Below, in pieces: positions 6,101 to 55,549 of a stretch of 64,000 nt of DNA. The position numbers and the translations under genes are program-made. Position 1 is the stretch's first letter. The number at the start of each line of letters is the position of its first letter. Under the pieces are notes generated by a model. That model was not told the DNA's origin. It saw nothing but the letters and a program-made list of their open reading frames with translations, and searched no databases. This stretch comes from Salvelinus alpinus (Eukaryota > Chordata > Actinopteri > Salmoniformes > Salmonidae), in contig NC_092093.1 of assembly GCF_045679555.1 (NCBI RefSeq), positions 68,083,240 to 68,147,239 of the forward strand, in the 5' to 3' direction.

Positions 6101-9100
6101 TTTCCAGGTGAAGATGGCTGAGAAAAAGGAAACAACTTTATCCTTACTCTTCACTCCATACCAGTAAGTACCAACTGTAGAGATAGAACTACTACATATT
6201 ATGGTCATTCTCTAGTTCAACTCGTATAAAGAGAGTGACATGACCAGTTGTGTGTGTCCTCCGGTCTGTCTGTCTGTCCCTCAGGTTGCTGACAGAGTCA
6301 CGCCAGGCAGAGTTTATCAACAAGGCCAGGGTTCTGATCCAGCTAGAGGAATATGAAGAAGCTGTAAGTACACTGGGTATCAAACCCCAGTTATCTGTAC
6401 AACTGAAGACCGTGTTGGCCCACTGAGCTAAAGCCTATGTTTTTTCTTGGGTTACGGAATGTCCTCCCCCCCCCACTCTCTCAGATCTCTCTGTGCAGGT
6501 CTCTGATGGACCATGCGTTGGAGGGTCTGTCCTACTACCACACCTATGACCGGTTCTTTCTGGGCTGTAGTGTTGTGCTGGGCTTCACAGGCTGGACCTC
6601 CTATGTGGTTCTTGTTATACTGAAGACACACGCCAGTCTCAGGAGACCACCCACACCCACTGACCAGGTGATCAAACACACACACACACACAGTACATGG
6701 ATGCACACATGAAGGCAGGCACACACACCTCACCTCCTATATCATTCTGCCGATACTGAAGAGATGTGTTCACAACCCTGGGTGTGTGTTGAAGGTGTCT
6801 GGTAAAACCCTGTGTGTGTGTTGAAGGTTTCTGGTAAAACCCTGTGTGTGTGTTGAAGGTTTCTGGTAAAACCCTGTGTGTGTGTTGAAGGTTTCTGGTA
6901 AAACCCTGTGTGTGTGTTGAAGGTGTCTGGTAAAACCCTGTGTGTGTGTGTTGAAGGTTTCTGGTAAAACCATGTGTGTGTGTTGAAGGTTTCTGGTAAA
7001 ACCCTGTGTGTGTGTTGAAGGTGTCTGGTAAAACCCTGTGTGTGTGTTGAAGGTGTCTGGTAAAACCCTGTGTGTGTGTGTGTTGAAGGTTTCTGGTAAA
7101 ACCCTGTGTGTGTGTTGAAGGATCTGGTAAAACCCTGTGTGTGTGTTGAAGGTGTCTGGTAAAACCCTGTGTGTGTGTTGAAGGTGTCTGGTAAAACCCT
7201 GTGTGTGTGTTGAAGGTGTCTGGTAAAACCCTGTGTGTGTGTTGAAGGTGTCTGGTAAAACCCTGTGTGTGTGTTGAAGGTTTCTGGTAAAACCCTGTGT
7301 GTGTGTTGAAGGTGTCTGGTAAAACCCTGTGTGTGTGTTGAAGGTTTCTGGTAAAACCCTGTGTGTGTGTTGAAGGTGTCTGGTAAAACCCTGTGTGTGT
7401 GTTGAAGGTGTCTGGTAAAACCCTGTGTGTGTGTTGAAGGTTTCTGGTAAAACCCTGTGGTGGATGGGTGTGGGAGCAACGCTGCTGATTGGAATGTTCC
7501 TGATAATCCAGAGAAGTCCAGTAACCTACTACATCTACTGTCTACTGCCTGTCCCTGTCTGGTACTCTGTCCTCAAAGAGTGAGTACACACATACATACA
7601 TATATACACACACCCACACACACTCACAGTTTGAAGTGATTTGATGAGTTGAATGGATGAAAGGGAGGTATTTTACTTATTCTATGCCACTACATTTGTC
7701 ATGATCGCAAAGTGTTTATTTTGATGATATCAACCATACGTGTGTGCGTGTGTGTGTGTGTGTTTCAGGTTTGGAACTCTAACAGACCTGGTTCGTTCGT
7801 ACAGTTCGCTACCACTGGGTAAATGCTTTGGCTACTTTGCCCTGGTCACATTTGGGATTGAACTTCTGGTAAGCAATCATCATACGGTCACTATTTCACT
7901 AATGGCTCAATACAATATAATCTGCATTTCTACTTGGAAAAGGTTGCTACTGTGTCTGTCTCCCCCAGGTGGTGAGTTTCTTCCATCGGGCCATGTTGAC
8001 TGTAGGCCTGGCTGTTCTCTCTCTCTGGCCCCTCCTCTCTGGCCTCTACAGCAAGGCCAAGGTAAGACAAGGAGTGGCTTGTAGTTCTTTACTAGTCTGG
8101 TCTCTAGCTCCTTCCCCTTTGAGGTGCACAAATCTGAAAGGACTGGATGGCAATCAATATGGCAGGAGCACAAAGCACTTGTAAAATATGTGTTTAATTA
8201 ATTTTTCTCTCTCACTCGAAATATCTCTCCCTCTCACTCTAAATATATCTCCCTCTATCCTATCTCTCTTTGTCCTCTCTCTCTCTCTTTGTCCTGTCTC
8301 TCTCTCTCTCTTTGTCCTCTCTCTGTCTGTCTGTAGTTTAGGTCAGTGAGCTGGGTCCTGTGTTGTTTGTTTCTGGCCACATTTCCCATGATGCCAGTTG
8401 TTGGGAGAGAACCCAACATTCACATGGTGTAAGTAACCTCCCTACAACATTACAGCAATGCTTCTTAGCCCTCTTTAAAAAGAAAAATAGCGTTATATAT
8501 CTTTCTCTCTTTCTTTCCTCTCTCTGTAGTACCTGTGCAGGTGCACTCTCCCTGTTCATTTCCACCTTTTACCTCTGGTCGGCACGGAAACGGACTACAC
8601 TACACCTGACTGACCGCTACCTCTTAATCTTCCAGGTAAGAATGTGTGTGTGCGTGGGTGCACGTGCGTGTGTGTGTTAATCAGTATTGTTCCTATGTGT
8701 ATAGATGCTCCATGTAGCAGTGTGTGCCTATGTGCCCACCAGCACTCACTCCAGTCTGCAGCTGAAACAGGGTCTGCCTCTCCTCAACCAGATCATCAGT
8801 TGGACTACACTGGGTGGGCACCAACTCTCTCTCTCTCTCTTTATGATAAAAGTCCTTGAAATATCTGTATGATCATCAAAACCAGGCTTATAAAGATAAC
8901 TGGCATCTCTCTCTCCCAGGTTCCTCTCTGTTTGTTCCTTTGTTGAGTTCTACTCGTCTGTTCCATCGTCTGCTCAGTATCTTCCTCTCCCTCACAGCCA
9001 CCTACCTACTACTGAGTACTGGGTAAGAGATAGTCAGGCAATGCTCAACAAGTGTAAGCTTACACTGCAGTGATTAGCTGGTATCGTACCTGTACTAATT

Positions 9101-12100
9101 GTGTGTGTGTGTGTCAGGTCTGAGGCTCTGTTCCCCCCAGTCTTGTCCTGGCTGATGTTTGTGTGGATCAACATAGAACAGGAAGCCATGCTCTCTCAAG
9201 GTATCTCTGGGAGACAGGAGGTATAAACCTTTACGCCGTTACTGTTTTCTATTGATGAATGGTTTTACTTGCAATCTACTTTAGTTGAATGTTCCTAATG
9301 CATGGTGATCTGGATAAGAGTGACTGCTAAATGACTGGAGCCATGTAAATGTATACACCCTCTATGCACTGACACTGTGTCAAGGACCAGTCTCATGTTA
9401 ATCACCCCCGACTAATACAGCTACTTCCTGGTAAACAAGGTAACCACTGCTAGTCCCTTCACTTGGCACAATGCCATGGTTAATCCTCTGAGCATAGAAG
9501 ACAACCTTATTGGTGTAGAATGTCTGGTATAGCATTATACGATGCAGTGTTACACTGTATCAAGTCATTGTGGCTTTATTATGAAATACATTTGTGTCAT
9601 TGCTTTTCAGCTGTCCACGCTTGACTTCTCTGAAAACATTGACATCACCAAGATCAGACAACTAAAGCTGGATGACATCAGAAGATCCTACTTCTTTGTA
9701 TCCTTTTCCTTGGTGACGCTGCTGACTGTTAATGACCTATAGGCGGTGCTAGTTTAACCCTGGTGATAGTTGTCCCTATCTGATGTAGTTGCTGTCTGAG
9801 TTGGCTAAAGAAGAAGAACAGTGTTATCTGGTTACATTGGTTTTTAACCACAAACCCTAACATCAATCTTGACCTTATGCAAACAAATAGCATTTTGACC
9901 GTCTCTCTAAACTACTGGCTATTCTGTAAAACCACTGTCTGGTTCCTTGACATTAGGCTGTCAGGTTTTCTTCATAATTACAGCCTTCTTTGGTACTGGG
10001 AACATAGCATCCATTAACAGGTATTGTATGGTGGAGACTGGGGCTCTGGACCAATATGGGTTTATTTATGAGTGCATTAGGTTGGTTTTCACATTTACAT
10101 TATTTCACTATCTGACCTCTGAAACCCCTCTTGTCTTTCTCTGGGTTCGCTTTTTCTCGACTCTACTATGCCTCTTTGTTCTTGCCCCCCCTTCTCTCGC
10201 TCTCTCTACTCTCCTTCTCCCCCCTCTCTCTCGCTCTCTCCCCCCCTCCCTCCTACTCTCTCTCTGTAGTTTTGATCCAGCCTCAGTGTACTGCTTCCTC
10301 ACCGTCTTCAACCCCTTTATCATGGGAGGCCTGATGATGTGGAAGGTACCACACGACACCCCACACACAGACACACACGCACTACAATGTCATACCATAT
10401 GAAAGTACACTACTGTGGAGACTCCGGGATGTTGGCCTTCTAGGCAGAGTTGCAAAGAAAAAGCCATATCTCAGACTGGCCAATAAAAATAAAAGATTAA
10501 GATTGGCAAAAGAACACAGACACTGGACTGAGGAACTCTGCCTAGAAGGCCAGCATCCCGGAGTCGCCTCTTCACTGTTGACGTTGAGACTGGTATTTTG
10601 CGGGTACTATTTAATGAAGCTGCTAGTTGAGGACATGTGAGGCATCTGTTTCTCAAACTAGACACTCTAATGTACTTGTCGTCTTGCTCAGTTGTGCACC
10701 GAGGCCTCCCACTCCTCTTTCTATTCTGGTTAGACCAGTTTGCGCTGTTCTGTGAAGGGAGTAGTACACAGCGTTGTATGAGATCTTCAGTTTCTTGGCA
10801 ATTTCTCGCATGGAATCGCCTTAATTTCTCAGAACAAGAATAGACTGACGAGTTTCAGAAGAAAGTTATTTGTTTCTGGCCATTTTGAGCCTGTAATCGA
10901 ACCCACAAATGCTGATACTCCAGATACTCAACTTGTCTAAAGAAGGCCAGTTTTATTGCTTCTTTAAATCAGCACAACAGTTTTCAGCTGTGTGAACATA
11001 ATTACAAAAGGGTTTTCTAATGATCAATTAGCCTTTTAAAATGATAACCTTGGATTAGCTAACACAGTGCCATTGGAACACAGGGGTGATAGTTGCTGAA
11101 AATGGGCCTCTGTATGTCTATGTAGATATTCCATTAAAAATCTGCAGTTTCCAGCTACAATAGTCATTTACAACATTAGCAATGTCTACACTGTATTTCT
11201 GATCAATGTGATGTTATTTTAATGGATAAAAAATGTTTTTCTTTCAAAAACAAGGACCTTTAAGTGACCTCAAACTTTTGAACGGTAGTGTATGTTAAAA
11301 GGAAACAATGCTCTACTTATAATGGTGCCAACGAGATTGTGGTTAACCATGACTATTCTAACAACAGGTGTGGGTTACTTTCGTTCAGGTCTACATATCG
11401 GTCTGCATACACAATATGCCTCTATGGATTGTAGCATTGTCTTGTAGTCTCTCACTCAACACACTGAGTGACTTTGACAGAGCAAAAATACAGATATCGT
11501 CAACAAAACTGATCACAACTTTGCAAATAATCCACAATGTGTTGTAACCTCCCCACACTTTTACAATGGAGTCCAGTGCCTAAAAGAGTGAAGATGAGAC
11601 TGTTGTTGTTACAGGTGATAATCCCATTCATCATCGTTATGTGTACGTTTGAAACCATCCAGGTCTCTACACAACTTTCCTCCAGAAGGTAACAGTTAGC
11701 TTGGTTCCATCATGTGAAAATCAAGTACACATACAGACATACAGTATTTTGAGAAATTAGGGGTCATTTATTGAATTAAGAATTCATTTATTTATTGAAT
11801 TAAGAATTTATATTATTGAATTAATAATTTCTCTTTTGTTTCCAGTCTGTTCCTCATCGTCCTGGTGATATCTGACCTGATGGCTCTGGTAAGGAATGAG
11901 ACAGCTATTATCAGTATGGTAGCCTCTGGTAAGGAATGAGACAGCTATTATCAGTATGGTAGCATCTGGTAAGGAATGAGACAGCTATTATCAGTATGGT
12001 AGCATCTGGTAAGGAATGAGACAGCTATTATCAGAATGGTAGCCTCTGGTAAGGAATGAGACAGCTATTAGCAATATGGTAGCCTCTGGTAAGGAATGAG

Positions 12101-15100
12101 ACAGCTATTAGCAATATGGTAGCCTCTGGTAAGGAATGAGACAGCTATTAGCAATATGGTAGCCTCTGGTAAGGAATGAGACAGCTATTAGCAATATGGT
12201 AGCCTCTGGTAAGGAATGAGACAGCTATTAGCAATATGGTAGCCTCTGGTAAGGAATGAGACAGCTATTAGCAATACGGTAGCCTCTGGTAAGGAATGAG
12301 ACAGCTATTAGCAATATGGTAGCCTCTGGTAAGGAATGAGACAGCTATTAGCAATATGGTAGCCTCTGGTAAGGAATGAGACAGCTATTAGCAATATGGT
12401 AGCCTCTGGTAAGGAATGAGACAGCTATTATCAGAATGGTAGCCTCTGGTAAGGAATGAGACAGCTATTATCAGTATGGTAGCCTCTGGTAAGGAATGAG
12501 ACAGCTATTAGCAATATGGTAGCCTCTGGTAAGGAATGAGACAGCTATTATCAGTATGGTAGCCTCTGGTAAGGAATGAGACAGCTATTATCAGTATGGT
12601 AGCCTCTGGTAAGGAATGAGACAGCTATTATCAGTATGGTAGCCTCTGGTAAGGAATGAGACAGCTATTAGCAGTATGGTAGCATCTGGTAAGGAATGAG
12701 ACAGCTATTAGCATTATGGTAGCATCTGGTAAGGAAGGAACAGATATTAGCAATATGGTAGCCTCTGGTAAGGAATGAGACAGCTATTAGCAATATGGTA
12801 GCATCTGGTAAGGAATGAGACAGCTATTAGCAATATGGTAGCCTCTGGTAAGGAATGAGACAGCTATTATCAGTATGGTAGCCTCTGGTAAGGAATGAGA
12901 CAGCTATTAGCAATATGGTAGCCTCTGGTAAGGAATGAGACAGCTATTATCAGTATGGTAGCCTCTGGTAAGGAATGAGACAGCTATTAGCAATATGGTA
13001 GCCTCTGGTAAGGAATGAGACAGCTATTATCAGTATGGTAGCATCTGGTAAGGAATGAGACAGCTATTAGCAATATGGTAGCATCTGGTAAGGAATGAGA
13101 CAGCTATTAGCAATATGGTAGCCTCTGGTAAGGAATGAGACAGCTATTAGCAATATGGTAGCCTCTGGTAAGGAATGAGACAGCTATTATCAGTATGGTA
13201 GCCTCTGGTAAGGAATGAGACAGCTATTATCAGTATGGTAGCCTCTGGTAAGGAATGAGACAGCTATTATCAGTATGGTAGCATCTGGTAAGGAATGAGA
13301 CAGCTATTATCAGTATGGTAGCCTCTGGTAAGGAATGAGACAGCTATTAGCAATATGGTAGCCTCTGGTAAGGAATGAGACAGCTATTAGCAATATGGTA
13401 GCATCTGGTAAGGAATGAGACAGCTATTAGCAATATGGTAGCCTCTGGTAAGGAATGAGACAGCTATTAGCAATATGGTAGCCTCTGGTAAGGAATGAGA
13501 CAGCTATTATCAGTATGGTAGCCTCTGGTAAGGAATGAGACAGCTATTAGCAATATGGTAGCATCTGGTAAGGAATGAGACAGCTATTATCAGAATGGTA
13601 GCCTCTGGTAAGGAATGAGACAGCTATTATCAATGTGGTAGCCTCTGGTAAGGAATGAGACAGCTATTAGCAATATGGTAGCATCTGGTAAGGAATGAGA
13701 CAGCTATTATCAGAATGGTAGCCTCTGGTAAGGAATGAGACAGCTATTAGCAATATGGTAGCATCTGGTAAGGAATGAGACAGCTATTATCAGAATGGTA
13801 GCATCTGGTAAGGAATGAGACAGCTATTATCAGTATGGTAGCCTCTGGTAAGGAATGAGACAGCTATTAGCAATATGGTAGCATCTGGTAAGGAATGAGA
13901 CAGCTATTATCAGAATGGTAGCCTCTGGTAAGGAATGAGACAGCTATTATCAATGTGGTAGCCTCTGGTAAGGAATGAGACAGCTATTAGCAATATGGTA
14001 GCATCTGGTAAGGAATGAGACAGCTATTATCAGAATGGTAGCCTCTGGTAAGGAATGAGACAGCTATTAGCAATATGGTAGCATCTGGTAAGGAATGAGA
14101 CAGCTATTATCAGAATGGTAGCATCTGGTAAGGAATGAGACAGCTATTATCAGAATGGTAGCCTCTGGTAAGGAATGAGACAGCTATTAGCAATATGGTA
14201 GCATCTGGTAAGGAATGAGACAGCTATTATCAGTATGGTAGCATCTGGTAAGGAATGAGACAGCTATTATCAGTATGGTAGCATCTGGTAAGGAATGAGA
14301 CAGCTATTATCAGAATGGTAGCCTCTGGTAAGGAATGAGACAGCTATTAGCAATATGGTAGCATCTGGTAAGCAATATGGTAGCATCTGGTAAGGAAGGA
14401 ACAGATATTAGCAATATGGTAGCATCTGGTAAGGAATGAGACAGCTATTAGCAATATGGTAGCCTCTGGTAAGGAATGAGACAGCTATTGTCAGTATGGT
14501 AGCCTCTGATAAGGAATGAGACAGCTATTAGCAATATGGTAGCCTCTGGTAAGGAATGAGACAGCTATTATCAGTATGGTAGCCTCTGGTAAGGAATGAT
14601 ACAGCTATTATCAGTATGGTAGCCTCTGGTAAGGAATGAGACAGCTATTAGCAATATGGTAGCCTCTGGTAAGGAATGAGACAGCTATTGTCAGTATGGT
14701 AGCCTCTGATAAGGAATGAGACAGCTATTAGCAATATGGTAGCCTCTGGTAAGGAATGAGACAGCTATTAGCAATATGGTAGCCTCTGGTAAGGAATGAG
14801 ACAGCTATTATCAGTATGGTAGCCTCTGGTAAGGAATGAGACAGCTATTATCAATATGGTAGCATCTGGTAAGGAATGAGACAGCTATTATCAGTATGGT
14901 AGCCTCTGGTAAGGAATGAGACAGCTATTATCAATATGGTAGCATCTGGTAAGGAATGAGACAGCTATTATCAGTATGGTAGCCTCTGGTAAGGAATGAG
15001 ACAGCTATTATCAATATGGTAGCATCTGGTAAGCTGTGGAAATGTCACCATATTCTCCCACACTATTTCTATCACTACCTCGTTCTCCTCTCTCTCCATC

Positions 15101-17514
15101 CCTCTTTCCTCCGCTTTCTCCAGCATTTCTTCTTCCTAGTGCAGGACTATGGGAGCTGGCTGGACATTGGCACCAGGTAGGACCCAGCAGAGAGATAGGT
15201 TTTGCATGTCTTATGGCTCATTTATAAACTGGGTGGTTTGAGTCCTGAATGCAGATTGGATGAAAGCCGTGGTATATCAGACCATATACCATGGGTATGA
15301 CAAAACATTTATTTTTACTGCTCTAATTACATTGGTAACCAGTTTATAATAGCTATAAGGCACTGGGGGGTTTGTGGTATATAGCCAATATACCACGTCT
15401 AAAGGCTGTCTCCAGGAACTCCGTGTTGAGTCGTGCTTAAGAACAGCCCTTAGCCGTGGTATATTCACCAAATACAGTGCATTCGGAAAGTATTCAAACC
15501 CATTGAATTGTTTTTACATTTTGTTAAGTTACAGCCTTATTCTAAAATGTATTAAATCGTTATTTTCCCCCCTCAATCTACACACAATACACCATAATGA
15601 CAAAGCAAAAACAGGTTTTTAGATTTGTTTGTAAATGTATTAAAAATAAACAACTTTAATAAACAACTCACATTGACATAACCTTTCAGACCCTTTACTC
15701 AGTCCTTTGTTGAAGCACCTTTGGCAGCGATTACAGCCTCGAGTTTTCTTCGGTATGACTCTACAAGCTTGGCACACCTGTTTTTGGGGAGTTTCTCTCA
15801 TTCTTCTCTGCAGATCCTTTCAAGCTCTGTCAGATTGAATGGGGAGCATCTCTGCACAGCTTTTATCAGGTCTCTCTAGAGATGTTTGATTGGGTTCAAA
15901 TCCGGACTCTGGCTGGGCCACACAAGGACATTCAGAGACTTGTCCCGAAGCCACTTCTGCGTTGTCTTGGCTGTGTGCTTAGGGTCGTTGCCTTGTTGGA
16001 AGGTGAACCTTCAGCCCAGTCTGAGGTCCTGAGCGCTCTGGGGCAGGTTTTCATCAAGGTTCTTTCTATACTTTGGTCCGTTCATCTTTCCCTCGATCCT
16101 GACTAGTCTCCCAGTCCCTGCCGCTGAAAAACATCCCTACAGCATGATGCTGCCACCACCATGCTTCACCGTAGGGATGGTGCCAGGATTCCTCCAGACG
16201 TGACACTTGGCATTCAGGCCAAAGAGGTCAATCTTGGTTTCATCAGAGTCCTTTAGGTGCCTTTTGGCAAACTCGAAGCAGGCTGTCATGTGCCTTTTAC
16301 TGAAGAGTAGCTTCCCTCTGGCCACTCTACAATAAAGGCCTGATTGGTGGAGTGCTGCAGAGATGGTTGTCCTTCTGGAAGGTTCTCCCATCTCCACAGA
16401 GGAACTCTGGAGCAACCATCGGGTTCTTGGTCACCTCCCTGACCAAGGCCCTTCTCCCACGTTTGCTCAGTTTGGCCGGACGGCCAGCTCTAGGGAGTCT
16501 TGGTGATTTCAAACTTCTTGCATTTAAGAATGATGGAGGCCACTGTGTTGTTGGGGACCTTCAATGCTGCAGAAATGTGTTGGTACCCCTTCCCCAGTTC
16601 TGCGCCTCGACACAATGCTGTCTCAGAGCTCTACGGACAATTCCTTTGTTCTCATGGCTTGGTTTTTGCTCTGAATGCACGGTCAACTGCGGGACCTAAT
16701 ATAGACAGGTGTGTGCCTTTCCAAATCATGTCCAATCAATTGAATGTAGCACAGGTGGACTACAATCAAGTTGTAGAAACATCTCAAGGATGATCAATGG
16801 AAACAGGATGCACCTGAGCTGTAAATAAGGTATTTCTGAAAACCTGCTTTTGGTTTGTCATTATAGGGTATTGTGTGTAGATTGATGAGTATTTTTTAAA
16901 TTCATTCATTTTAGAAAAGGCTGTAACAATGTGGAAAAAGTCAAGGGGTCTGAATACTTTCCGAATGCACTGTACCACACCATCGGGCCTTATTGCTTAA
17001 ATTAGCCCATGCTGTCAGAGGAGGCTGGTGGGCGGAGATATAGAAGTACAGGATCAATGTAATTTTTAAATTTTACCTTTATTTAACTAGGCAAGTCAGT
17101 TAAGAACAAATTCTTATTTTCAATGACGGCCTAGGAACTGCCTTGTTCAGGGGCAGAACGACAGATTTGTACCTTGTCAGCTCGGGGATTCGATCTTGCA
17201 ACGTTTCGGTTACTAGTCCAACACTCTAACCACTAGGCTACGCTGCCGCCCCATAATGAATGGAAATGTGTTTGATACCTTTCCATTTATTCCATTTCAG
17301 CCATTACAACAAGCCTATATCTTGGCCCACCAGCAACCACACACACACACACACTTATATATATATATATATATATCTCTCTGTTTCCAGTATCAGCCAC
17401 TATGTGATTGTGATGTCCATGACCATCTTCCTGATGCTGCTCAGTCTGATGACCCACATTCTCACCTCCAGGAGAGTCTCTCTGTGTAGGACACGCAAGA
17501 TGCACTTCCCCTGA
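3125..17514 (+). CDS. pign: pign, GPI ethanolamine phosphate transferase 1, complete, 28 coding exons
   Basis: The protein adds ethanolamine phosphate to the first mannose of the GPI anchor precursor in the ER. Coding exons: 3125-3351, 3454-3575, 3915-4013, 4210-4316, 4426-4550, 4868-4998, 5076-5195, 5415-5455, 5591-5650, 5914-6006, 6108-6163, 6285-6363, 6485-6667, 7440-7579, 7769-7868, 7969-8061, 8337-8428, 8530-8635, 8705-8813, 8920-9022, 9118-9220, 9611-9697, 9965-10020, 10270-10345, 11615-11688, 11846-11888, 15124-15176, 17391-17514. They sum to 2802 nt, 933 codons plus stop, and every phase fits. There is an N-terminal signal anchor. The alkaline-phosphatase-type site has Asp54 (VADGLRAD), nucleophile Thr94 (PTESRPGH), Asp216/His220 (GIDTNGHAH), Asp264/His265 (TSDHGM) and His277 (GAGHPSE). 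The multi-pass PigN domain fills the C-terminal half. In-frame Met3 aligns with the human start, as I recall it, and would give 931 residues. Minisatellites copy splice sites beside exons 14 and 26. Confidence 0.95.
4624..4772. repeat. Two-copy direct repeat in pign intron 5
   Basis: Two imperfect copies of about 75 bp share ATACATTATTCTCTAATA, CTTTTAAATG and GCAGATTT blocks, beginning near 4624 and 4702. They lie within the intron between 4551 and 4867 and touch no splice signal. Confidence 0.8.
6770..7460 (+). repeat. 33-bp minisatellite copying the pign exon-14 acceptor (21 copies)
   Basis: Each unit reads roughly GTGTGTGTGTTGAAG followed by GTTTCTGGTAAAACCCT. I count 21 occurrences of GTTGAAGG. 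The last copy is the real splice junction: intron ends TTGAAG at 7439 and exon 14 begins GTT TCT GGT AAA ACC CTG at 7440. Most units are 33 bp; two or three have an extra GT, one lacks two bases (GGATCTGG), and T/G alternate at one position (GTTTCTGG or GTGTCTGG). Reading from an earlier copy reaches TGA in the same unit, so only the last acceptor is productive. Confidence 0.93.
10405..11291. mobile_element. Degraded Tc1-like transposon in pign intron 24
   Basis: The right end (11258-11291) carries the outward terminal repeat ending AACTTTTGAACGGTAGTGTA, known from salmonid Tc1 elements. The interior near 10430-10860 encodes minus-strand remnants of the paired-like transposase N-terminus ([14 protein letters not shown]). 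Part of the centre is lost, and the left end is ill-defined and rearranged (TACACTACTGTGGAGACTCC). It is inactive. Confidence 0.75.
11880..15032 (+). repeat. 40-bp minisatellite copying the pign exon-26 donor (about 78 copies)
   Basis: Exon 26 ends GCTCTG|GTAAGG at 11888. The array repeats a 40-bp unit in which GCCTCTG or GCATCTG is followed by GTAAGGAATGAGACAGC, TATTA, a variable tetramer (TCAG or GCAA), and TATGGTA. Each unit therefore copies the exon end and the donor. Copies differ at a few diagnostic sites. Units at about 12733 and 14394 share a GTAAGGAAGGAACAGATATT variant, and two (near 14509 and 14709) have GATAAGG and so lack the GT. The unit length is not a multiple of three, and use of the second donor reads into TGA. 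The array fills almost the whole intron up to exon 27 at 15124. Confidence 0.96.
15226..17010. mobile_element. Salmonid palindromic MITE interrupted by a Tc1 element
   Basis: The left part (15226-15474) begins TTATAAACTGGGTGG and contains AGCCGTGGTATATC and TATAGCCAATATACCAC palindromic blocks. The right part (16973-17010) resumes with ACCACACCATCGGGCC. The same family occurs at about 34495-34662 and 36837-37101. The Tc1 element at 15475-16972 sits in a TA inside it. Confidence 0.75.
15475..16972. mobile_element. Tc1-like DNA transposon in pign intron 27, decayed
   Basis: Inverted ends CAGTGCATTCGGAAAG and CTTTCCGAATGCACTG are flanked by TA duplications (15473-15474 and 16973-16974). A minus-strand transposase relic can be traced: [11 protein letters not shown] around 16220 and [11 protein letters not shown] at 16140-16170. 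It is broken by frameshifts and stops. The family is the same as the copy at 20886-23097, but the two are independent insertions. Confidence 0.88.
17015..17338. mobile_element. MITE with a SINE inserted (pign last intron)
   Basis: The ends are imperfect inverted repeats: GAGGCTGGTGGGCGGAGATA near 17017, and the complement of GGCTTGTTGTAATGG and GCTGGTGGGCCAAGATAT near 17300-17335. The interior is interrupted at about 17066-17253 by a minus-strand SINE with a tRNA-like head (TAGCCTAGTGGTTAGAG on the minus strand). Confidence 0.65.
17066..17253 (-). mobile_element. tRNA-derived SINE, near full length
   Basis: Read on the minus strand it starts with a tRNA-like A box (TAGCCTAGTGGTTAGAGTG), then a degenerate B box (GATCGAATCC), and ends in the AT-rich AGTTAAATAAAGG tail. 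Related copies lie at 29157-29350 and 53628-53805. Confidence 0.8.
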
Positions 17515-19364
17515 ACACTATCTATCTCTCACTGTGTGTGTGTGTGTTTAATCATGCCTATTTATTAACATTCACGATTAGATTTACCTGAAGTGCACAA
17601 TTATGCAAAGCAAGATGCCGTAGGACTAACTTTTGATGTGCACTGGAATTTTTTTATTGTAGAGGTCTACATTAAAACTGTGGCTTATCAAAGTCAAGGT
17701 AGCAAAAACATAACCACATGTAACATATGGAGTTATTCCCGTAAAAGTTCAATTAAACGCAGTCTCAAATAGCAGCCTTTCCCTTTTGAATAGCCGAGTA
17801 ACGGCACACATTTCAGCAAATTTAACGCCTGTTTCAAATAAACGCTGTTTACGAGGTTACCATGAATTGCCATTAATTGTTTACAAGGTTTAATGTTTGA
17901 TTTGTTAAATTTCACAAATTCAGTAAGGACTCAAAAAAATTATGGCAATCATATATTTTTATCACCAGTAATAAACTGGTAGCCATTGGCTGCGAAAAGC
18001 TGAGAACTGTTAGCTAACTGGCAACCACAAAAAGTCAACAACTTCGGGAGTTGGCGAAAGTAAGAACTGCTGAAAATACACAGTCAAAGAGGAGAATAAT
18101 TATATGTATTCTGGCAAGGATCTATGGGGGAGGAAATATAGCCATACTAAGACAAAAGAAACGTGACAATGTAAATGATAACACATTTGTGCAGGAAATT
18201 AAGAGATTGATTAAAATGCTGGAAGTGATTGCTGGAATTAAACCAATAACTATGCAAATGAGGAAAAGCTGTGAAATAGACACCTGGCTCAAATAGAAGC
18301 CTGTCTCTAATGATCCCCTTTCTGTTTTCAGTGATTCAAGCCTAGAAACTCCCAGGCTATTAATTAGACTTTTTTAACGGTACATAAAACTGATCAGATC
18401 AGAATTCTGAAGTCTGACAAATGTTTTGTTTTTTGAGGGGACGACAATGTCATAGAGGACCCGGTGTGCATTCATGACTACTCGTTTTCAGCCAACTTAC
18501 AAGCAAATACTTTACCATCTCGTGGTAAGAGTGGCTAAGTTACTAAGCGAGAGTCAGGGTAGAGAGGCACTTCAGAGGGAGAATCAGTGAATCCAATAGC
18601 GATATAAGTAGGGGAAATCTAAAGTAGATAGATTTCAGAGGCAACACTCCATAGGCGACAGAGGTCACAGGTGTCGAGGGGAACAGTCAACATGCCGGCG
18701 ATCAGAGGAAGGCTCCAGGCAGGTGGAAATTATCACATAACACCACAGTCCAAACTCAGATGTCAGTCAGCTAGCGCGCTAGCACTAAGCCAAGGTTACA
18801 AAAGGTACAAAACTCCGGTAGGCCAAAAAGTGGACAAAACGAATGAGGATGAAAATCAAACAAAGACAGACGAGGTACTAAACAATTAGAGTAGGCAGGG
18901 ATGATTTGAAGCAAGTCACATTCTGAATGTGCAGAATGTCCCATGTGTAATATGATAGCTAGTTTACATCACACTTACTCGTGAATGTTGGATTCTAGCT
19001 CACCACCGCCAACACTCGGTCTCTTAATGACGGTGGCAATTGTGCATTGTGGGTAGTTCCGAAGTTATCCGAAAATAAGTTAATACATATTTAAAAACCT
19101 CAAAACAGAACTATTTTGGAAGTTATAGTTAACCAGATCGTGACTACAACTAAGTTTTTGACTACACTGTGTTGTCACTTTGTTGAGTAAAAACTCCTGC
19201 TTTCTACCCTTTAAGTCTAGGTATAGGACAAGTTATACTTGAATATTTGAATGATCTATATATGATATTGACAACAGTATTTTCAACTACTGTTCACCAA
19301 AAACAAAAGCATTGTTATGTATAATTGAAATGAAGCCATTAAGTAATGGAACAAGAGTAATAAT
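17515..19364. other. pign 3' UTR and gene-free sequence
   Basis: The pign stop TGA is at 17512-17514. Possible polyadenylation signals are ATTAAA at 17671 and AATAAA at 17837. Beyond that I see AT-rich sequence with no recognisable gene. An open stretch at 18051-18296 has no ATG at its start and no family resemblance. Confidence 0.5.
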
Positions 19365-19503
19365 AATATGCCATTAGCAGACGGTTTTATCCAAAGCGAC
19401 TTAGTCATGCGAGCATACATTTTACATATGGGTGGTCCCAGGAATCAAACCCACTACCCTGGTGTTTAACGCCATGCTCTACCAACTGAGCTACAAAGGA
19501 CCA
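19365..19503 (-). mobile_element. tRNA-derived SINE (second family)
   Basis: On the minus strand the head reads TTTGTAGCTCAGTTGGTAGA and then GGGTTTGATTCCTGGG, matching tRNA A- and B-box promoters. The tail contains CTAAGTCGCTTTGGATAAAA and CTGCTAATGG. The head is too diverged and has no acceptor stem for a real tRNA. Confidence 0.8.
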
Positions 19504-20885
19504 TGCTCAAGAGTAGCCTAACTAACTTAATAGTTGATAAGGGATGTATTTGTGTGTTACTAATGTGTTATTGAGTCGTTTCCTACTTCGATGTGTGGTA
19601 AATAGTTTTATATTCTACGGGGTTATCTATCATATTAATATTGTATTACATCTATTTTTTTCAACTGATACTATATGATGTATTACCTGGTGGATATGGG
19701 TGGTGTATTAAAATGTTAATTTACTGCCAGTGCGTTGTCCTGTAGTGTTTCTACTGTACATTCATCCAGAGGCAAGACCTATTTTAACACCATCATCACC
19801 AATAGACATCTTTCAGTTAACTTCTGTTTCCTCCAAGAATGGTTGTACATGATCTTATCTTCTTTGGCACTACTACACTCAGCCAGTTTATTAGGTACAC
19901 CCATCTAGTACCGGATCGGACCCCCTTTGCCCCCAGAACAGCCGGAATTCTTTGGGGCATTCTACAAGGTGTCGGAAACGTTCCCACGAGGACGTTGGTC
20001 CATGCTGACGCAATGGCATCAGGCAGATTGTTTCTCCACTCAAATGTTAGGATCCCCAGTAGCCGACGCCAATGACGACAGCACGTCTTACTGGGGTCCG
20101 ACGTATAACGGAAAATACATTACAGACAAAAGACTACAATTTACATACTTTTAAAAACATGAACATATATTGTGTGCATCTATCAGTTCCACATACATGT
20201 CAGTACATACACACAACAAGTAGGTCACATTGGGGAGATGCGTTGTGCCATGAGGTGCTTTATTTATTTTTTGAAACCAGGTTTGCTGTTCACTTGCGCT
20301 ATATAAGACGTAAGGGAGTTCCATGCACTCATGGCTCTGTATAATAGTGTACATTGCCTTGAATTTGTTCTGGGGACTGTGAAAAGACCCCTGGTGGCAT
20401 GCCTGGTGGGGTAAGTGTACGTGTCAGTGCTGTGTGTAAGTTGACTACGCAAACAATTTGGAATTTCCAATACATTAATGTTTCTTATAAAACAAGAAGA
20501 GACACAGTCGCAGTCTTTCCTCAACTCTTAGCCAAGAAAGACTGGCATGCGTAGTATTAATATTAGCCCTCTGATTACAATGAACAGGAAGACGTGCCGC
20601 TCTGTTCTGGACGAGCTGCAGCTTAACTAGGTCTTTGCAGCACTTGGCCATATGACTGGACAATAATCACGATAAGATAAAACTAGAGCCTACATTACAA
20701 ATGGAGTTGAATTTGTCTTTCTGCCCATAATTTCATTTAAAGTACTCAAGTTTTTTTCCCATCATTCTTTATATCACTGATCTTGGCTTCATGATACAGT
20801 TTCTTTTCTTTTTTTGAGTTTAGGTCACATAATTTCTCAATTATGTGTAATGTGTAAGTCAGTATGTGTAAGTCAGCCAGACCTA

Positions 20886-23097
20886 CAGTGCCTTCGGAAA
20901 GTATTCAGACCCCTTGACCTTTTCCACTTTTTGTTACGTTACAGCCTTATTATAAAATCTATTAAATAAATACAAAATCCTCTGCAATCTACACACAATA
21001 CCCAATAAGCAAAAACAGATTTTTAGAAATGTTAGCAAATATATATAAAAATAAAACCATAAATATTCAGACCCTTTGCTATGAGACTCGAAATTGATCT
21101 CAGGTGCACCCTGTTTCCATTGGTCATCCTTTAGATGTTTCTACAACTTGATTGTGTCACGTTCTGACCTTAGTTCCTTTTTTATGTCTTTATTTTAGTT
21201 GGTCAGGGCGTGAGTTGGGGTGGGCATTCTATGTTTTGTTCTGTTATATTTCTATGTGTTTGGCCTAGTATGGTTCTCAATCAGAGGCAGGTGTCAGTCG
21301 TTGTCTCTGATTGGGAGCCATATTTAGGTAGCCTGTTTTCTATTGTGTTTTGTGGGTGGTTGTTTCCTGTGTTAGTACCATACGGGACTGTGTCGGTTGT
21401 TTGTTTGTACTTTTGATATTTTGTTCAGTGTTCTGTGGATTTATTAAATATCTCATTATGGACACTTACCACGCTGCACATTGGTCCGATCCTTGCTACT
21501 CCTCCTCAGACGAAGAGGAAATCCGTTACAGAACCACCCACCAAAAAAGGACCAAGCAGTGTGGTAACCAGGAGCAGAGGGTTCTGGACTCCTGGACATG
21601 GGACGAAAGAGGAGCTGGAGGCAGCTAGAGCGGAGCGGCGCCACTACGAGGAATTGGCGCGAGGTAACAGGCACGAGAGGCAGCCCCAGAATTTTTTTTT
21701 GGGGGGGGGCACACGGGTAGATTGGCGGACTCAGGTAGGAGACCTGAGCCAACTCCCCGTGCTTACCGTGGCGAGAGAGTGACTGGGCAGGCACCGTGTT
21801 ATGCGGGGAAGTGCACGATGTCCCCAGTGCGCACGCATAGCCCGGTGCGCTACATCACAGCTCCTCGAATCGGCCGGGCTAGAGTGGGCATTGAGCCAGG
21901 AGGGATGATGCCGGCTCAGCACATCTGGTCTCCAGTGCGTCTCCTCGGCCCAGGGTATACTGCACCAGCCCTACGCACGGTGTCTCCAGTTCGCCAGCAC
22001 AGCTCAGTGCGGCCTGTTCCAACTCCCCGCACTTGCCGGGCTACAGGGGGGATCCAGCCAGGGCGAGTGGTGCTAGCTCTGCGCTGGAGACCGCCAGTGC
22101 GCCTCCACGGTCCAGTGCATCCGGTGCCTCGGCCAAGGACAAGGCCTCCTGCATGTCTCCCCAGCCTGGTGAGTTCTGTGTCTGTGCTAAGCACTAACCC
22201 TCCTGCATGTCTCCCCAGCCTGGTGAGTCCTGTGCCTTCTCCCAGAGCCAGGCCTTCTGTGTGTCTCTCCAAGCCAGTGATAATCCATGGCACGAAGCCT
22301 CCAGTGATGATCCATGGCAAGAAGCCTCCAGTGATAATCCATGGCACGAAGCCTCCAGTGAGGATCCATGGCACGAAGCCTCCAGTGATGATCCATGGCC
22401 CGAAGCCTCTAGTGATGATCCATGGCACGAATGCCAAGTGCCACGTCTGGAGGAAATCTGGCACGATCCCTACAGTGAAGCATGGTGGTGGCAGCAGGGA
22501 CTGGGAGACTAGTAATGATTGAGGAAAAGATGAACAGAGCAAAGTACAGAGAGATCCTTGATGAAAACCTGCTCCAGAGTGCTCAGGACCTCAGACTGGG
22601 GCGAAGGTTCACCTTTCAACAGGACCACGACCCTAAGCACACAACTAAGACAGCACAGGAGTGCCTTCGGGACAAGTCTCTGAAAGTCCTTGAGTGGCCC
22701 AGCCAGAGCCTGGACTTGAACCTGACCGAACATCTCTGGAGAGACCTGAAAATAGCTGTGCAGCAATGCTCCCCATCCAACCTGACAGAGCTTGGGAGGA
22801 TCTGCAGAGAAGAATGGGAGAAACTCTCCAAATACAGGTGTGCCAAGCTTGTAGCATCATACCCAAGAACACTTGAGGCTGTAATCGCTGCCATAGGTGC
22901 TTCAACATAGTACTGAGTAAAGGGTCTGAATACTTATGTAAATGTTATATTTCAGTTTTTTTTTTTTATAAATACGCAAAACTATCTAAACTTGTTTTTG
23001 CTTTGTCATTATGGAGTATTGTGTAGATGAGGGGAAAAAAACGATTTAATCAATTTTAGAATAAAGCTGTAACCTAACATACTTTCCAAAGGCACTG
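20886..23097. mobile_element. Tc1-like transposon carrying a foreign internal segment
   Basis: Ends CAGTGCCTTCGGAAAG and the complement CTTTCCAAAGGCACTG are flanked by TA (20884-20885 and 23098-23099). The C-terminal half of the transposase reads on the plus strand from about 22430 to 22910, with QQDHDPKHTTKTAQE and LDLNLTEHLWRDL, where the catalytic-Glu motif is altered. At 21155-22430 the N-terminal half is replaced by an unrelated segment. Confidence 0.85.
21155..22430 (+). repeat. Unclassified insert with Pro/Val-rich frame and 27-bp repeats
   Basis: The segment begins TGTCACGTTCTGACC, a common start of dispersed salmonid repeats, right after the Tc1 left end. Its second half has an open frame (21722 onward) rich in SPVR, PVPTPR and PACLPSLV motifs. 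Near its end (22272-22430) it carries about six 27-bp units of GTGATGATCCATGGCACG plus AAGCCTCCA, giving an MIHGTKPPV peptide repeat. I cannot assign it to a family: a retroelement gag-like remnant and a non-coding repeat are both possible. Confidence 0.5.
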
Positions 23098-29044: not shown

Positions 29045-29052
29045 AACACAAC

Positions 29053-31024: not shown

Positions 31025-34000
31025 ATGTCCGATGAGCTGGAACCCCTGTCCATCCTCAAACGTCTTACCCTGGTGTCCATCTATAGCCTGGTCCTGGTCA
31101 TTGGGATCATCGGGTTGGCCCTGATGATCCACATCCTCCAATCGAACATGCGATCAGTCATCACCATCGCTATGCTCAACCTCACCCTGGCCCACTTCCT
31201 GTTCCTACTCACCGTACCCTTCAGGATCTACTACTATGCTGCTGGTTACTGGGGGTTGGGGAAGATGCTGTGTAAGGTGGTCAGTGCCATGATCCACGTA
31301 CACATGTACATGGCTTTTGTTTTCTACGTGGTTATCCTCGTCATACGACTGCTGGGGTTCCATAGCAAGAAGGATCGCTACGAGTTTTACAGGTAGTGAA
31401 GTTAACTACGTTCTACAAATAGTTAACTGTGTCCTACAGGTAGTTCATTTAACTGTGTTCTACAGGTAGTTAACCGTGTTCTACAGGTAGTCTACCTCAT
31501 TGTACAGGTAGTTAACCCTCTGTGTTCTACTGGTAGTTAATTTAACTGTGTTCTACAGGTAGTTAACCGTGTTCTACAGGTAGTCAACCTCATTGTACAG
31601 GTAGTTAACCCTCTGTGTTCTACAGGTAGTTAACCCTCTGTGTTCTACAGGTAGTTAACCCACTGTGTTCTACAGGTAGTCAACCTCATTGTACAGGTAG
31701 TTAACCGTGTTCTACAGGTAGTGAACCCTCCGTGTTCTACAGGTAGTGAACCCTCCGTGTTCTACAGGTAGTGAACCCTCCGTGTTCTACAGGTAGTGAA
31801 CCCTCCGTGTTCAACAGGTAGTGAACCCTCCGTGTTCTACAGGTAGTGAACCCTCCGTGTTCTACAGGTAGTGAACCCTCCGTGATCTACAGGTAGTGAA
31901 CCCTCCGTGTTCTACAGGTAGTGAACCCTCCGTGTTCTACAGGTAGTGAACCCTCCGTGTTCTACAGGTAGTTAACCCTCCGTGTTCTATAGGTAGTTAA
32001 CCCTCCGTGTTCTATAGGTAGTTAACTACCTCTAGAACACAGTTAAGTTAACTTAACTGTGGTCTACAGCTAGTTAATCATGTTCTACAGGTAGTTAACT
32101 TAACTGTGTTCTACAGGTAGTTAACCGTGGTCTACAGGTAGTTAACAGTGTGTGTTCTACAGGTAGTTAACTTAACTGTGTTCTACAGGTAGTTAACCGT
32201 GGTCTACAGGTAGTTAACAGTGTGTGTTCTACAGGTAGTTAACTTAACCGTGGTCTACAGGTAATTAACCGTGGTCTACAGGTAGTTAACCGTGGTCTAC
32301 AGGTAGTTAACCGTGGTCTACAGGTAGTTAACTTAACCGCGGTCTACAGGTAATTAACCGTGTTCTACAGGTAGTTAACCGTGGTCTACAGGTAGTTAAC
32401 TTAACCGTGGTCTACAGGTAGTTAACTTAACCGTGGTCTACAGGTAGTTAACTTAACCGTGGTCTACAGGTAGTTAACTTAACTGTGTTCTACAGGTAGT
32501 TAACCGTGGTCTACAGGTAGTTAACAGTGTGTGTTCTACAGGTAGTTAACTTAACCGTGGTCTACAGGTAATTAACCGTGGTCTACAGGTAATTAACCGT
32601 GGTCTACAGGTAGTTAACTTAACCGTGGTCTACAGGTAATTAACCGTGGTCTACAGGTAATTAACCGTGGTCTACAGGTAGTTAACTTAACCGTGGTCTA
32701 CAGGTAGTTAACTTAACCGTGGTCTACAGGTAATTAACCGTGGTCTACAGGTAATTAACCGTGGTCTACAGGTAATTAACCGTGGTCTACAGGTAATTAA
32801 CCGTGGTCTACAGGTAATTAACTTAACCGTGGTCTACAGGTAGTTAACTTAACCGTGGTCTACAGGTAGTTAACTTAACCGTGGTCTACAGGTAATTAAC
32901 CGTGGTCTACAGGTAGTTAACTTAACCGTGGTCTACAGGTAATTAACCGTTGTCTACAGGTAGTTAACTTAACAGTGGTCTACAGGTAATTAACCGTGGT
33001 CTACAGGTAATTAACCGTGGTCTACAGGTAATTAACCGTGGTCTACAGGTAGTTAACTTAACCGTGGTCTACAGGTAGTTAACTTAACCGTGGTCTACAG
33101 GTAGTTAACTTAACCGTGGTCTACAGGTAGTTAACTTAACCGTGGTCTACAGGTAATTAACCGTGGTCTACAGGTAGTTAACTTAACCGTGGTCTACAGG
33201 TAGTTAACTTAACCGTGGTCTACAGGTAATTAACCGTGGTCTACAGGTAATTAACCGTGGTCTACAGGTAATTAACCGTGGTCTACAGGTAATTAACTTA
33301 ACCGTGGTCTACAGGTAGTTAACTTAACCGTGGTCTACAGGTAGTTAACTTAACCGTGGTCTACAGGTAATTAACCGTGGTCTACAGGTAATTAACCGTG
33401 GTCTACAGGTAATTAACCGTGGTCTACAGGTAATTAACCGTGGTCTACAGGTAGTTAACTTAACCGTGGTCTACAGCTAATTAACCGTGGTCTACAGGTA
33501 ATTAACTTAACCGTCGTCTACAGGTAGTTAACTTAACCGTGGTCTACAGGTAGTTAACTTAACCGTGGTCTACAGGTAGTTAACCGTGGTCTACAGGTAG
33601 TTAACTTAACCGTGGTCTACAGGTAGTTAACTTAACCGTGGTCTACAGGTAATTAACCGTGGTCTACAGGTAATTAACCGTGGTCTACAGGTAGTTAACT
33701 TAACCGTGGTCTACAGGTAATTAACCGTGGTCTACAGGTAGTTAACTTAACCGTGGTCTACAGGTAGTTAACCGTGGTCTACAGGTAGTTAACTTAACCG
33801 TGGTCTACAGGTAGTTAACTTAACCGTGGTCTACAGGTAGTTAACTTAACCGTGGTCTACAGGTAATTAACCGTGGTCTACAGGTAATTAACCGTGGTCT
33901 ACAGGTAGTTAACTTAACCGTGGTCTACAGGTAATTAACCGTGGTCTACAGGTAGTTAACTTAACCGTGGTCTACAGGTAATTAACCGTGGTCTACAGGT

Positions 34001-35311
34001 AGTTAACTTAACCGTGGTCTACAGGTAATTCACCGTGTTCTACAGGTAGTTAACTTAACCGTGGTCTACAGGTAGTTAACTTAACCGTGGTCTACAGGTA
34101 ATTAACCGTGTTTTACAGGTAGTTAACTTAACCGTGGTCTACAGGTAGTTAACTTAACCGTGGTCTACAGGTAATTAACCGTGGTCTACAGGTAATTAAC
34201 CGTGGTCTACAGGTAGTTAACTTAACCGTGGTCTACAGGTAATTAACAGTGGTCTACAGGTAATTAACCGTGGTCTACAGGTAGTTAACTTAACCGTGGT
34301 CTACAGGTAATTAACCGTGGTCTACAGGTAGTTAACTTAACCGTGGTCTACAGGTAATTAACCGTGGTCTACAGGTAGTTAACTTAACCGTGGTCTACAG
34401 GTAGTTAACTTAACCGTGGTCTACAGGTAATTAACCGTGTTCTACAGGTAGTTAACTTAACCGTGTTCTCAGGTATTAACAGTGTGTTCCACAGGCCATA
34501 TAGCACAAATATTATATTGTATATTGGCCATATACCACAAACCCCTGAGATGCCTTATTGCTATTATAAACTGTTTACCAATGTAATTAGACCAGTAAAA
34601 ATAAATGCTTTGTCATCTGTCAGCCAATCAGCATTCAGGGCTTGAACCACCCAGTTTATAATGGTAGTTAACTGTGTTGTAGAGGTAGAGAGGTGTCTCT
34701 CAATGTGTGTCATGGCATGGGGGATGGGAAAGGCAAATATCTGTTTCTCACAAAATCACTAAGGGTCTCCTCTCTTCTCCAGGAAGTTGCATGCTTTTGG
34801 CGCCAGCGTGGCAGTGTGGGTGGTGATGTTTGCGGTCATTCCCCCCATCCTTTTTTTCAAATACGGCACGGACTTACAAGATAACACCACCAACAACAAG
34901 ACAAACAAAATGTCCACCAATGACTCCCACTGTTTCCAGTTCGGCAACCACCTGGAAGGACACATTGGTGTCAGGGTGCTGAACTACATCATGAGCTCTG
35001 TGATCATCATTGTGGCCTGTGTGCTGACAGCACTGCAGTGTCATGTCATGGTCCTTCTGATCAGGAAGTATGGGCGAGACTGCTTGTCTCACCAGGAGTT
35101 CTGGGCTCAGCTGAAGAGCCTGTGTTTTGCTTTGGTGCTGCTGGTGTGTTTTGTCCCCTATCACGTGTTCAGGATGTACTACCTGGGACACCTGTACCTG
35201 CAGAACACTAACGAGGTATTCCTCAGTCTCACGGCCCTCAGCTGTTTCGACATGCTTACCTTCCTACGGAGGGGACACTGCTATATGCGTAACAGAGCAC
35301 GGACTGTGTGA
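31025..35311 (+). CDS. gpr141: GPR141-like orphan class A GPCR, two coding exons
   Basis: Exons 31025-31392 and 34783-35311 join in phase (TAC AG|G AAG) to give 298 codons. Exon 1 has TM1-TM3 with RSVITIAMLNLTLAHFLFLL, LTVPFRIYY and CKVVSAMIHVHMYMAFVFYV. Exon 2 has TM4-TM7 with SHQEFWAQLK, CFVPYHVFRMYYL and LTALSCFDMLTF. These blocks align closely with mammalian GPR141 (about 305 residues). The TM3 DRY motif is IRL, and TM7 has CFDML in place of NPxxY, as I recall for GPR141. Sites for N-glycosylation are in the second extracellular loop (NDSH). Exon 1 stays open upstream of the ATG to the acceptor at 30989, and that stretch encodes a further NST glycosylation site, so a leader exon with an earlier start is possible. 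The intron is nearly all minisatellite. A GPR141 paralogue cannot be excluded. Confidence 0.85.
31385..34480 (+). repeat. Minisatellite copying the gpr141 exon-1 donor (roughly 130 copies)
   Basis: The exon ends TTTTACAG|GTAGTGAAGTTAAC at 31392. The array that follows repeats TTCTACAG|GTAGTTAAC and derivatives. In the larger downstream part, units of 21 bp (GTGGTCTACAGGTAATTAACC) and 26 bp (the same with GTTAACTTAACC) alternate irregularly. Nearly every unit retains ACAG|GTA(A/G)T, so it copies both an AG and a GT. The early part (31700-32000) uses a GTGAACCCTCCGTGTTC variant. One inverted copy lies at about 32020-32050. Confidence 0.96.
34495..34662. mobile_element. Salmonid palindromic MITE fragment at the end of the gpr141 array
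   Basis: It contains TATTGGCCATATACCACAAA, CCTTATTGCTATTATAAACT and CAGCCAATCAGCATTCAGGG, and ends CCACCCAGTTTATAAT. It matches the right half of the copy at 36837-37101 and lies between the minisatellite and exon 2. Confidence 0.75.
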
Positions 35312-37101: not shown

Positions 37102-37809
<708 letters not shown>

Positions 37810-37865
37810 CTCCTTTCTCTCTCTCTCTCGCTGTATGTATGCACTTGGTAGTGGATTAGTGAAAT

Positions 37866-38120: not shown

Positions 38121-38769
38121 GTATGTGCCATTAGGAGACATTTACCACAGTTAGATTAACTGCTCTTGGTATACTGTATATCCCCACACCCTCCTTCCTA
38201 CCGTCATGATTATTGCCCTAATCATAAACGGAATGATGCAGGCCATTCAATTATGTTAGATTCATTATATTACCTCAATCAGATTGCATTCAATCTCTAA
38301 CAGAGGTATTTAGTGCAGTGAAACTATGTGAATAGTGGGAGTAGAGGGTCAACCATGTCTTCTTTATGATCAGCAATACAAAATGATAGAGGGAAGTTGA
38401 TGGGAGTCAATGGGAGTCAATGGGTGGTATCAGTGATGTTTTTTGTAGATTAGATGCTGTTGTATTGCTCTGTCTTTGATTAGATTAGGCAGGCTATGGA
38501 GGCCACAGAATACTGGCCACAAACACACACACCTAATGACATCGTCACCACCCTGTCAAACTTGCCAATATGTCTCACAAACAGAGAATATCTATCTCTA
38601 CCCTATCTCTCCAACCCTGTGATAAGTGAGGGAAATAAGGACAGATAAAAGAAAGAGATAAGTAATGTGTAACTAGGTGAGATGCCTTCGTCAAGGCCCA
38701 CCCACTTTCGTTGTAGGTGACCAATCAAATGGCAGGGACCATAGGTTACTTTCTGCACTCCGAAAGGTG

Positions 38770-38900
38770 GAAGAACTGTATGTGACAGAAGAAGAAGAAG
38801 GTGAAGAAGAAGGTTAAGAAGAAGAAGAAAGTGAAGAAGAGGAAGAAGGTTAAGAAGAAGAAGAAGAAAGTGAAGAAGAAGAAGGTTAAGAAGAAGAAGA
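38770..38900. repeat. (GAA)n-rich purine tract upstream of hnf4
   Basis: A polypurine stretch of GAAGAAGAAG units with GTTAAG and GTGAAG interruptions begins about 270 bp before the hnf4 start codon and grades into GA-rich sequence up to 39030. It sits where the 5' UTR or proximal promoter should be. Confidence 0.9.
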
Positions 38901-39039
38901 AATAGACAGAAAGTGATAGTGAAAGAAATTGGAAGAAATAAACAGAGACAGAGAGAAAGACGGGAAGAGAAAAAGAGACAGAGGGAGAAGAGCCAGTAAA
39001 AGGAGAGAGAGACAGTGACAGAGGGAAAGAAAGCGAGGG

Positions 39040-55549
<16,510 letters not shown>

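Follow-up and report, generated by a model that had tools for sequence, protein, structure and literature searches.

The question raised by this locus is whether splice junctions are places at which tandem repeats are preferentially born, or whether repeats that arise in introns for other reasons simply come to straddle a junction and are tolerated there. The window (the whole stretch of 64,000 nucleotides that was analysed, taken from a 2.37-Gb assembly; Table 1) holds three adjacent genes, and models built from splice signals and open frames gave products of 933 aa for PIGN, 298 aa for GPR141 and 453 aa for HNF4, all in frame and with no internal stop; exon numbers used here count coding exons only. 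A preliminary description of the window had placed a splice junction in the first or last unit of four tandem arrays, and this is borne out by the edges of the arrays as called by TRF together with the in-frame models. There are four intronic arrays of at least five copies in the TRF calls for the window and all four have the true junction inside the unit at their exon-side edge, namely the acceptor at 7439/7440 (pign exon 14) and the donors at 11888/11889 (pign exon 26), 31392/31393 (gpr141 exon 1) and 54782/54783 (hnf4 exon 9). The exon numbers given previously are those of the coding-exon count of the models, and the earlier copy numbers of 21, about 78 and 8 stand beside TRF values of 21.3, 79.2 and 8.1, and the "roughly 130" proposed for gpr141 beside 124 CAGGTA anchors. 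The statement that four out of four arrays start on a junction is correct for intronic arrays of at least five copies but does not extend to the six shorter intronic arrays in a hand-merged list (2.4-3.3 copies, period at least 10), none of which spans a junction; two of these six are rich in pyrimidines and stop 4-5 nt short of an acceptor.

Table 1. Features of the window, with positions counted from its first letter except where a contig is named; a slash marks the splice junction
Feature	Position	Strand	Basis or remark
Window	C8:68083240-68147239		2.37-Gb assembly
pign exon 14 acceptor array, 32 bp x 21.3	6774..7459	+	TRF; last unit holds TTGAAG/GTTTCTGG
AACCCTG, intron-side direct repeat bounding pign exon 14 array	6774..6780	+	Border alignment, by eye
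pign coding exon 14	7440..7579	+	In-frame model; first ~20 nt recur in array units
AACCCTG, exon-side direct repeat bounding pign exon 14 array	7451..7457	+	Border alignment, by eye
pign intron 22 start	9698-9706		Reads GTATCCTTT
pign coding exon 26, donor CTCTG/GTAAGG	11846..11888	+	In-frame model
pign exon 26 donor array, 40 bp x 79.2	11884..15033	+	TRF; first unit contains donor
TCTGGTAAG, 5' copy of 9-nt direct repeat, donor included	11885..11893	+	pign exon 26 array border
TCTGGTAAG, 3' copy of 9-nt direct repeat	15025..15033	+	pign exon 26 array border
gpr141 coding exon 1, donor TTTTACAG/GTAGTG	31025..31392	+	In-frame model
gpr141 donor array, 21-26-bp units, 124 CAGGTA anchors	31384..34495	+	TRF; copy 1 is the native donor
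hnf4 coding exon 9, donor AGATAG/GTAAAA	54663..54782	+	In-frame model
hnf4 exon 9 donor array, 65 bp x 8.1	54733..55260	+	TRF; begins inside exon 9
ACACACAC, exon copy of 8-nt direct repeat	54733..54740	+	hnf4 array border
ACACACAC, intron copy of 8-nt direct repeat	55253..55260	+	hnf4 array border
Older, diverged second copy of hnf4 donor region	55280..55299	+	Aligned with closer copy in C10 duplicate

The window contains a number of other features. Pyrimidine-rich short repeats at 8209-8332, 10200-10264 and 15078-15122 end 1-5 nt upstream of pign acceptors; these three stretches resemble repeated pyrimidine tracts and were excluded from the junction-spanning count. The start of pign intron 22 is a sequence that we take to resemble the U12-type donor consensus. 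Intron 7 of hnf4 is 7.9 kb long, with reverse-transcriptase-like and Tc1-like remnants recognised by eye in 43100-50300, and downstream of hnf4 a 36 bp x 196 array occupies 56947-64000 and runs past the window end.

Composition and genomic distribution of the arrays

In the acceptor array of pign exon 14 the sequence TTGAAG/G is present in all 21 anchors, and the AACCCTG pair that bounds the array is in register, as read by eye. The donor 9-mer CTGGTAAGG was found in 76 of the 80 scored copies of the exon 26 array, and a shared border word as long as the 9-nt TCTGGTAAG occurred in none of 400 random window pairs. The hnf4 unit consists of 50 nt of exon end and 15 nt of intron, and a border word as long as its 8-nt ACACACAC was shared in 3 of 400 random pairs. 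Within the gpr141 array, copies close to the junction seem more variable than those farther away (by eye, from the first 14 and last 10 units); no such gradient was seen by eye in the pign or hnf4 arrays, the comparison at pign exon 26 again covering the first 14 and last 10 units. To the eye, the stretch 32020-32060 within the gpr141 array resembles an inverted fragment of the array's unit.

It might be supposed that a dispersed satellite or mobile element had landed at these junctions, and one window array (22120-22431) does sit in a stretch that is transposon-like by eye. Genome searches, in which very common words were skipped and only the best candidates scored, gave a different picture for the two units that were used as queries. 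All 37 matches listed for an 80-nt query from pign exon 26 fell at its own locus, the one candidate place, and the gpr141 query produced 46 matches at three candidates, 35 of them in its own array and the remaining 11 on C10. The array units, moreover, contain local exon sequence. A dispersed satellite family was rejected on the grounds that these searches did not place the pign exon 26 and gpr141 units at many unrelated loci, and a dispersed element of any kind seems to us so improbable that it need hardly be considered. An artefact of assembly or sequencing is scarcely more credible. There is a run of Ns inside the window, at 46401-46500 in hnf4 intron 7, and long arrays are difficult to assemble with the right number of copies, but different units occur in unrelated genes, paired arrays are present on C5/C33 and on C8/C10, and a similar trout case, irak3, is in print (PMC6763605).

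The 11 gpr141-repeat matches on C10 (C10:16386850-16387682, 81-85% identity) are located between a pign relic and an hnf4 copy, and from this position they most likely represent the same array in a duplicate gpr141, which would predate the separation of the two copies. The C10 copy of pign appears to be a pseudogene, exon 13 not being found by blastn and exon 14 running, by eye, into a stop. The exon 14 array is absent from this relic, which has junction arrays of its own at exon 16 (79 bp x 6.6) and exon 20 (49 bp x 3.1). In the 200 bases around its donor that were read, the C10 duplicate of hnf4 lines up collinearly and has no array. It contains the donor region twice, 46 bp apart, as good a repeat being found in 1 of 300 random pieces. 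A diverged second copy of the donor region also lies 3' of the array in the window hnf4, and the hnf4 donor region has been duplicated twice, with differing periods.

Coding constraint and the choice of splice site

The place of the junction within each array has to be viewed in the light of the protein that depends on it. Swapping the junction to another copy moves the first stop in every instance (20/20 at pign exon 14, 77/77 at pign exon 26, 123/123 at gpr141 and 7/7 at hnf4); with other copies of the pign exon 26 array the first stop falls at 892 or 939, compared with 934 normally. On these reading frames, the full protein is predicted to be possible only from the exon-side copy. Because intron-side copies leave with the intron, and copies on the exon side of the junction would damage the protein, the junction comes to lie in the first or last unit; that position is forced by the coding constraint and is no evidence for seeding.

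Donor strength was scored on a scale provided by the 33 other donors of these genes, which range from 4.04 to 11.88 with a median of 7.54. The native donors score 7.98 at pign exon 26, 7.62 at hnf4 and 5.58 at gpr141, with 6 of the 33 lower than the last. Most copies in the three window donor arrays that were scored retain donor-like values, and the native gpr141 donor is outscored by 113 of the 126 array copies, so that donor strength alone does not account for the use of the outer copy. It could be argued from the retention of these scores that the arrays are kept for a function, for example as backup splice sites or in the recruitment of splicing factors, and the occurrence of the gpr141 repeat on C8 and, in diverged form, on C10 suggests that it is probably old and retained. 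However, the first stop is displaced with every inner copy, arrays are also found in the pseudogene-like pign copy, the C10 copy of hnf4 is without one, and unit types and copy numbers vary; we regard retention for function as very improbable. The earlier suggestion that copies of a splice site are self-buffering fits the cases seen in a weak sense, in that the extra copies are intronic and can presumably be spliced out.

Placement in the window and recurrence elsewhere

It had been argued that four out of four arrays on a junction is not what random placement predicts. With free placement over 37 introns the probability of four out of four is 0.00015, and that of at least four out of ten, short arrays included, is 0.0097. 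When arrays are confined to their own introns, P is 0.009 for the four long arrays (1.38 expected) and 0.17 when the six short ones are added (2.34 expected). The large gap between the two nulls is due to the shortness of the host introns once the arrays are subtracted (130, 138, 244 and 310 bp); given its intron, each long array has a chance of 0.13-0.46 of spanning a junction. The introns of the window total 22.5 kb without the arrays, of which there are ten. For the long arrays chance alone is unlikely under either null, a judgement that is post hoc, and the weight to be given to chance depends on which null is taken.

Six further junction arrays were found elsewhere in the genome, in a myosin gene, in two SLC6 genes, in one P450 gene and, at two separate junctions, in the pign relic, and among the ten distinct cases, window included, there are eight donors and two acceptors (pign exon 14 and the P450 case L037/L038). 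A sample of the SLC6 and P450 families was made up of the 30 best matches per family, of which 38 of 60 loci were kept; those discarded by hand were 10 loci taken as intronless (the whole family in a one-frame match) and 12 near-identical copies. The best P450 matches include many intronless-looking genes. In the 38 loci there are 25 arrays of at least five copies, 2 of which span a junction against 1.03 expected (P 0.28), and at a threshold of at least 2.5 copies the figures are 2 of 43 against 1.49 (P 0.45). The spanning cases are the SLC6 donor L066 (and its pair L067) and the P450 acceptor L037 (and L038), L037 being called by eye with its TRF edge 12 nt short of the end of the acceptor AG, a distance of 2 nt in the near copy L038. 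At L041-L043 the arrays are 414-696 bp away from the match edges.

Another set (set A) covered 20 regions, in which 22 stretches separating adjacent profile matches were treated as complete introns; it was drawn from 12 of 42 contiguous myosin pairs, the other 30 all being shorter, and 10 SLC6 pairs chosen by eye. Here 2 of 6 arrays of at least five copies span donors (myosin L073, whose array was joined by hand from two TRF rows, and SLC6 L089) against 0.71 expected (P 0.13), and free placement, counted as 2 of 4, gives P 0.016. For the pign relic, with overlapping TRF rows counted once and the 3.1-copy array of exon 20 outside the five-copy count, 1 of 6 arrays is at a junction against 0.35 expected (P 0.32). 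The lengths of intron free of arrays were set by hand on the basis of the TRF and match coordinates. When all the sets outside the window are pooled, a junction is spanned by 5 of 37 arrays, compared with 2.09 expected (P 0.045); removal of L037, called by eye, leaves 4 of 37 (P 0.141), and if only half of the SLC6/P450 flanks is intron values of 0.121 and 0.280 are obtained. With the window included, itself the discovery case, the count is 9 of 41 against 3.47 expected (P 0.0025).

Several non-spanning arrays (L024, L034/L035, L047, L060 and one after exon 12 of the C10 pign relic) begin no more than about 50 bp after the exon end, and arrays may crowd near exon ends in general. In the similar SLC6 loci L044 and L047, the same place after the donor holds a single unit copy in the former and a 28-bp x 21.6 array in the latter. 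The SLC6 donor region of L056 is present in two copies, at about 1739 and at 1813 in gene orientation, without an array of that unit. Two loci from a first pattern search, L002 and L004, had no arrays.

A genome-wide comparison was made by counting a donor word three times in tandem and the reversed pattern likewise, each divided by its single count. For CAGGTAAGT (gaps 10-40) the counts were 1046 triples and 15961 singles, and for the reversed pattern 1667 and 19624, a ratio of 0.77; for AGGTGAGT (gaps 12-42) the figures were 10312 to 90652 and 7067 to 104426, a ratio of 1.68. These are match counts, weighted by long arrays, with one reversed control each. The two donor words disagree, and the tandem-word test does not settle the hotspot question.

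All these figures bear on the proposal that splice-junction DNA, that of donors above all, is a true hotspot of tandem amplification through a mutational bias of unknown cause. It is favoured by the window, in which all four long arrays are at junctions under odds that are low with introns fixed and lower still with free placement, by the pooled excess outside it, by the doubling of the hnf4 donor region on two occasions with different periods, by the two junctions affected in the pign relic, by the ratio for AGGTGAGT and by the preponderance of donors. Set against this are the small size of the set and the status of the window as discovery case, the P values that follow removal of the one by-eye case or the assumption of half-intron flanks, the SLC6/P450 sample taken alone at either copy threshold, and the ratio below one for CAGGTAAGT. 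The preliminary description had held that junctions seed amplification, and the recurrence in unrelated genes and at two relic junctions, together with the repeated duplication at hnf4, goes some way towards this, but an excess over other intron DNA is not established by the pooled count or by the two donor words. A hotspot, in our estimation, is a rather unlikely explanation.

Relation to mirages, origin and significance

The arrays had also been thought to be perhaps an undescribed class of repeat, and here the available parts of the literature say otherwise. Tandem duplications of exon-intron boundaries, known as mirages, have been published from lancelets, in Adh3, the globins BflGb6 and BflGb9, troponin C and PGBD5 (PMC3087553, PMC3902484), and boundary repeats are on record in human and trout genes (PMC2812944, PMC6763605). 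Lancelet mirages involve either the 5' or the 3' boundary, with AG/GT signals in many copies, one real site and apparently normal splicing (PMC3087553, PMC3902484). The present arrays are like them in that the units span the authentic exon-intron boundary in 4/4 intronic arrays of at least five copies in the window, in that donor and acceptor boundaries are both affected and in that the copies carry splice signals. They are unlike them in scale, as the BflGb6 haplotypes are reported with 6 and 3 units, and the units of the lancelet genes with 10-160 bp, whereas here the copies number as many as 124 and the arrays extend to 3.1 kb. Splicing and length instability have been studied in lancelets, whereas the arrays described here are known from the sequence of one assembly.

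In human segmental duplications, minisatellites with units of ~30 bp alter exon-intron boundaries, with 27 intron modifications described (PMC2812944); the focus of that report is on new introns and alternative splicing in recent paralogs, whereas here the exon-side site keeps the protein. The human 6-16/G1P3/IFI6 minisatellite is reported to have multiple splice donors (Turri 1995, cited in PMC3618361), two downstream repeat units reportedly acting as donors (PMC4526556), and the window arrays similarly supply many donor copies. In the irak3 gene of rainbow trout the opening 15-17 nt of exon 5 recur four times immediately before that exon (PMC6763605), which is the layout of pign exon 14 and in a salmonid, but the copies are few and the case is not generalised by its authors in the part of the report available. 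A model of intron gain invokes tandem duplication across an AG/GT (AGGT) sequence (PMC3443670, PMC4974935); it is related to the present cases but is not matched by them, since no new intron is apparent; at hnf4, the donor of intron 9 occurs in the C10 duplicate without the array. The window arrays are of the mirage kind, with copy numbers above those of the globin and irak3 cases. The kind is already known and its recurrence within this genome is the new point; the titles and openings of abstracts found, among which subscription papers are thinly covered, showed no genome-wide comparison of array edges with splice junctions for any fish.

The reading that we prefer, and consider probable, is that these are mirage-type minisatellites, born by slippage, that straddle junctions and survive as their extra copies are spliced out. 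A short tandem duplication would happen to straddle an exon-intron junction, in three of the window arrays presumably by slippage between short direct repeats of which one lies at or within the exon and its partner in the intron, and the array would then grow by slippage or unequal exchange. The exon-side copy would be maintained by selection as the splice site in use, since a switch to any other copy displaces the first stop, and the intron-side copies would be spliced out and hence tolerated. Junction arrays would be frequent since the stretches examined are rich in minisatellites and a number of the introns would be short if their arrays were taken away, and a straddled junction would then be an unremarkable result. 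Border words elsewhere (5 nt at gpr141, L073, L089, L067 and relic exon 20, and 3 nt at relic exon 16) are all at chance, so that support for birth between direct repeats is confined to the three window arrays. Such birth as a general rule was dropped, border words outside those three being of at most 5 nt and at chance. No junction-specific mechanism is required for slippage-born arrays of this kind, but a mild preference of two- to threefold is allowed; the observations leaning towards a real excess are the window (4/4 against 1.38), set A (2/6 against 0.71) and AGGTGAGT.

A bolder proposition can be put forward tentatively, and we doubt it: that donors are a two- to threefold hotspot, and that a few percent of introns are mirage introns with tens to hundreds of decoy sites, some of them older than the separation of gene copies. 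If this were true, mirage introns would provide a lasting source from which new splice sites and introns could be gained. Junction-spanning minisatellites, described mostly gene by gene in the literature available, can readily be found in a large vertebrate genome, with up to 124 copies, which suggests that such introns call for care in annotation and in short-read mapping. They also make it possible to test whether boundary duplications feed intron gain, and how the spliceosome picks the outermost among dozens of near-identical sites, a site that in gpr141 is weaker than most of its copies.
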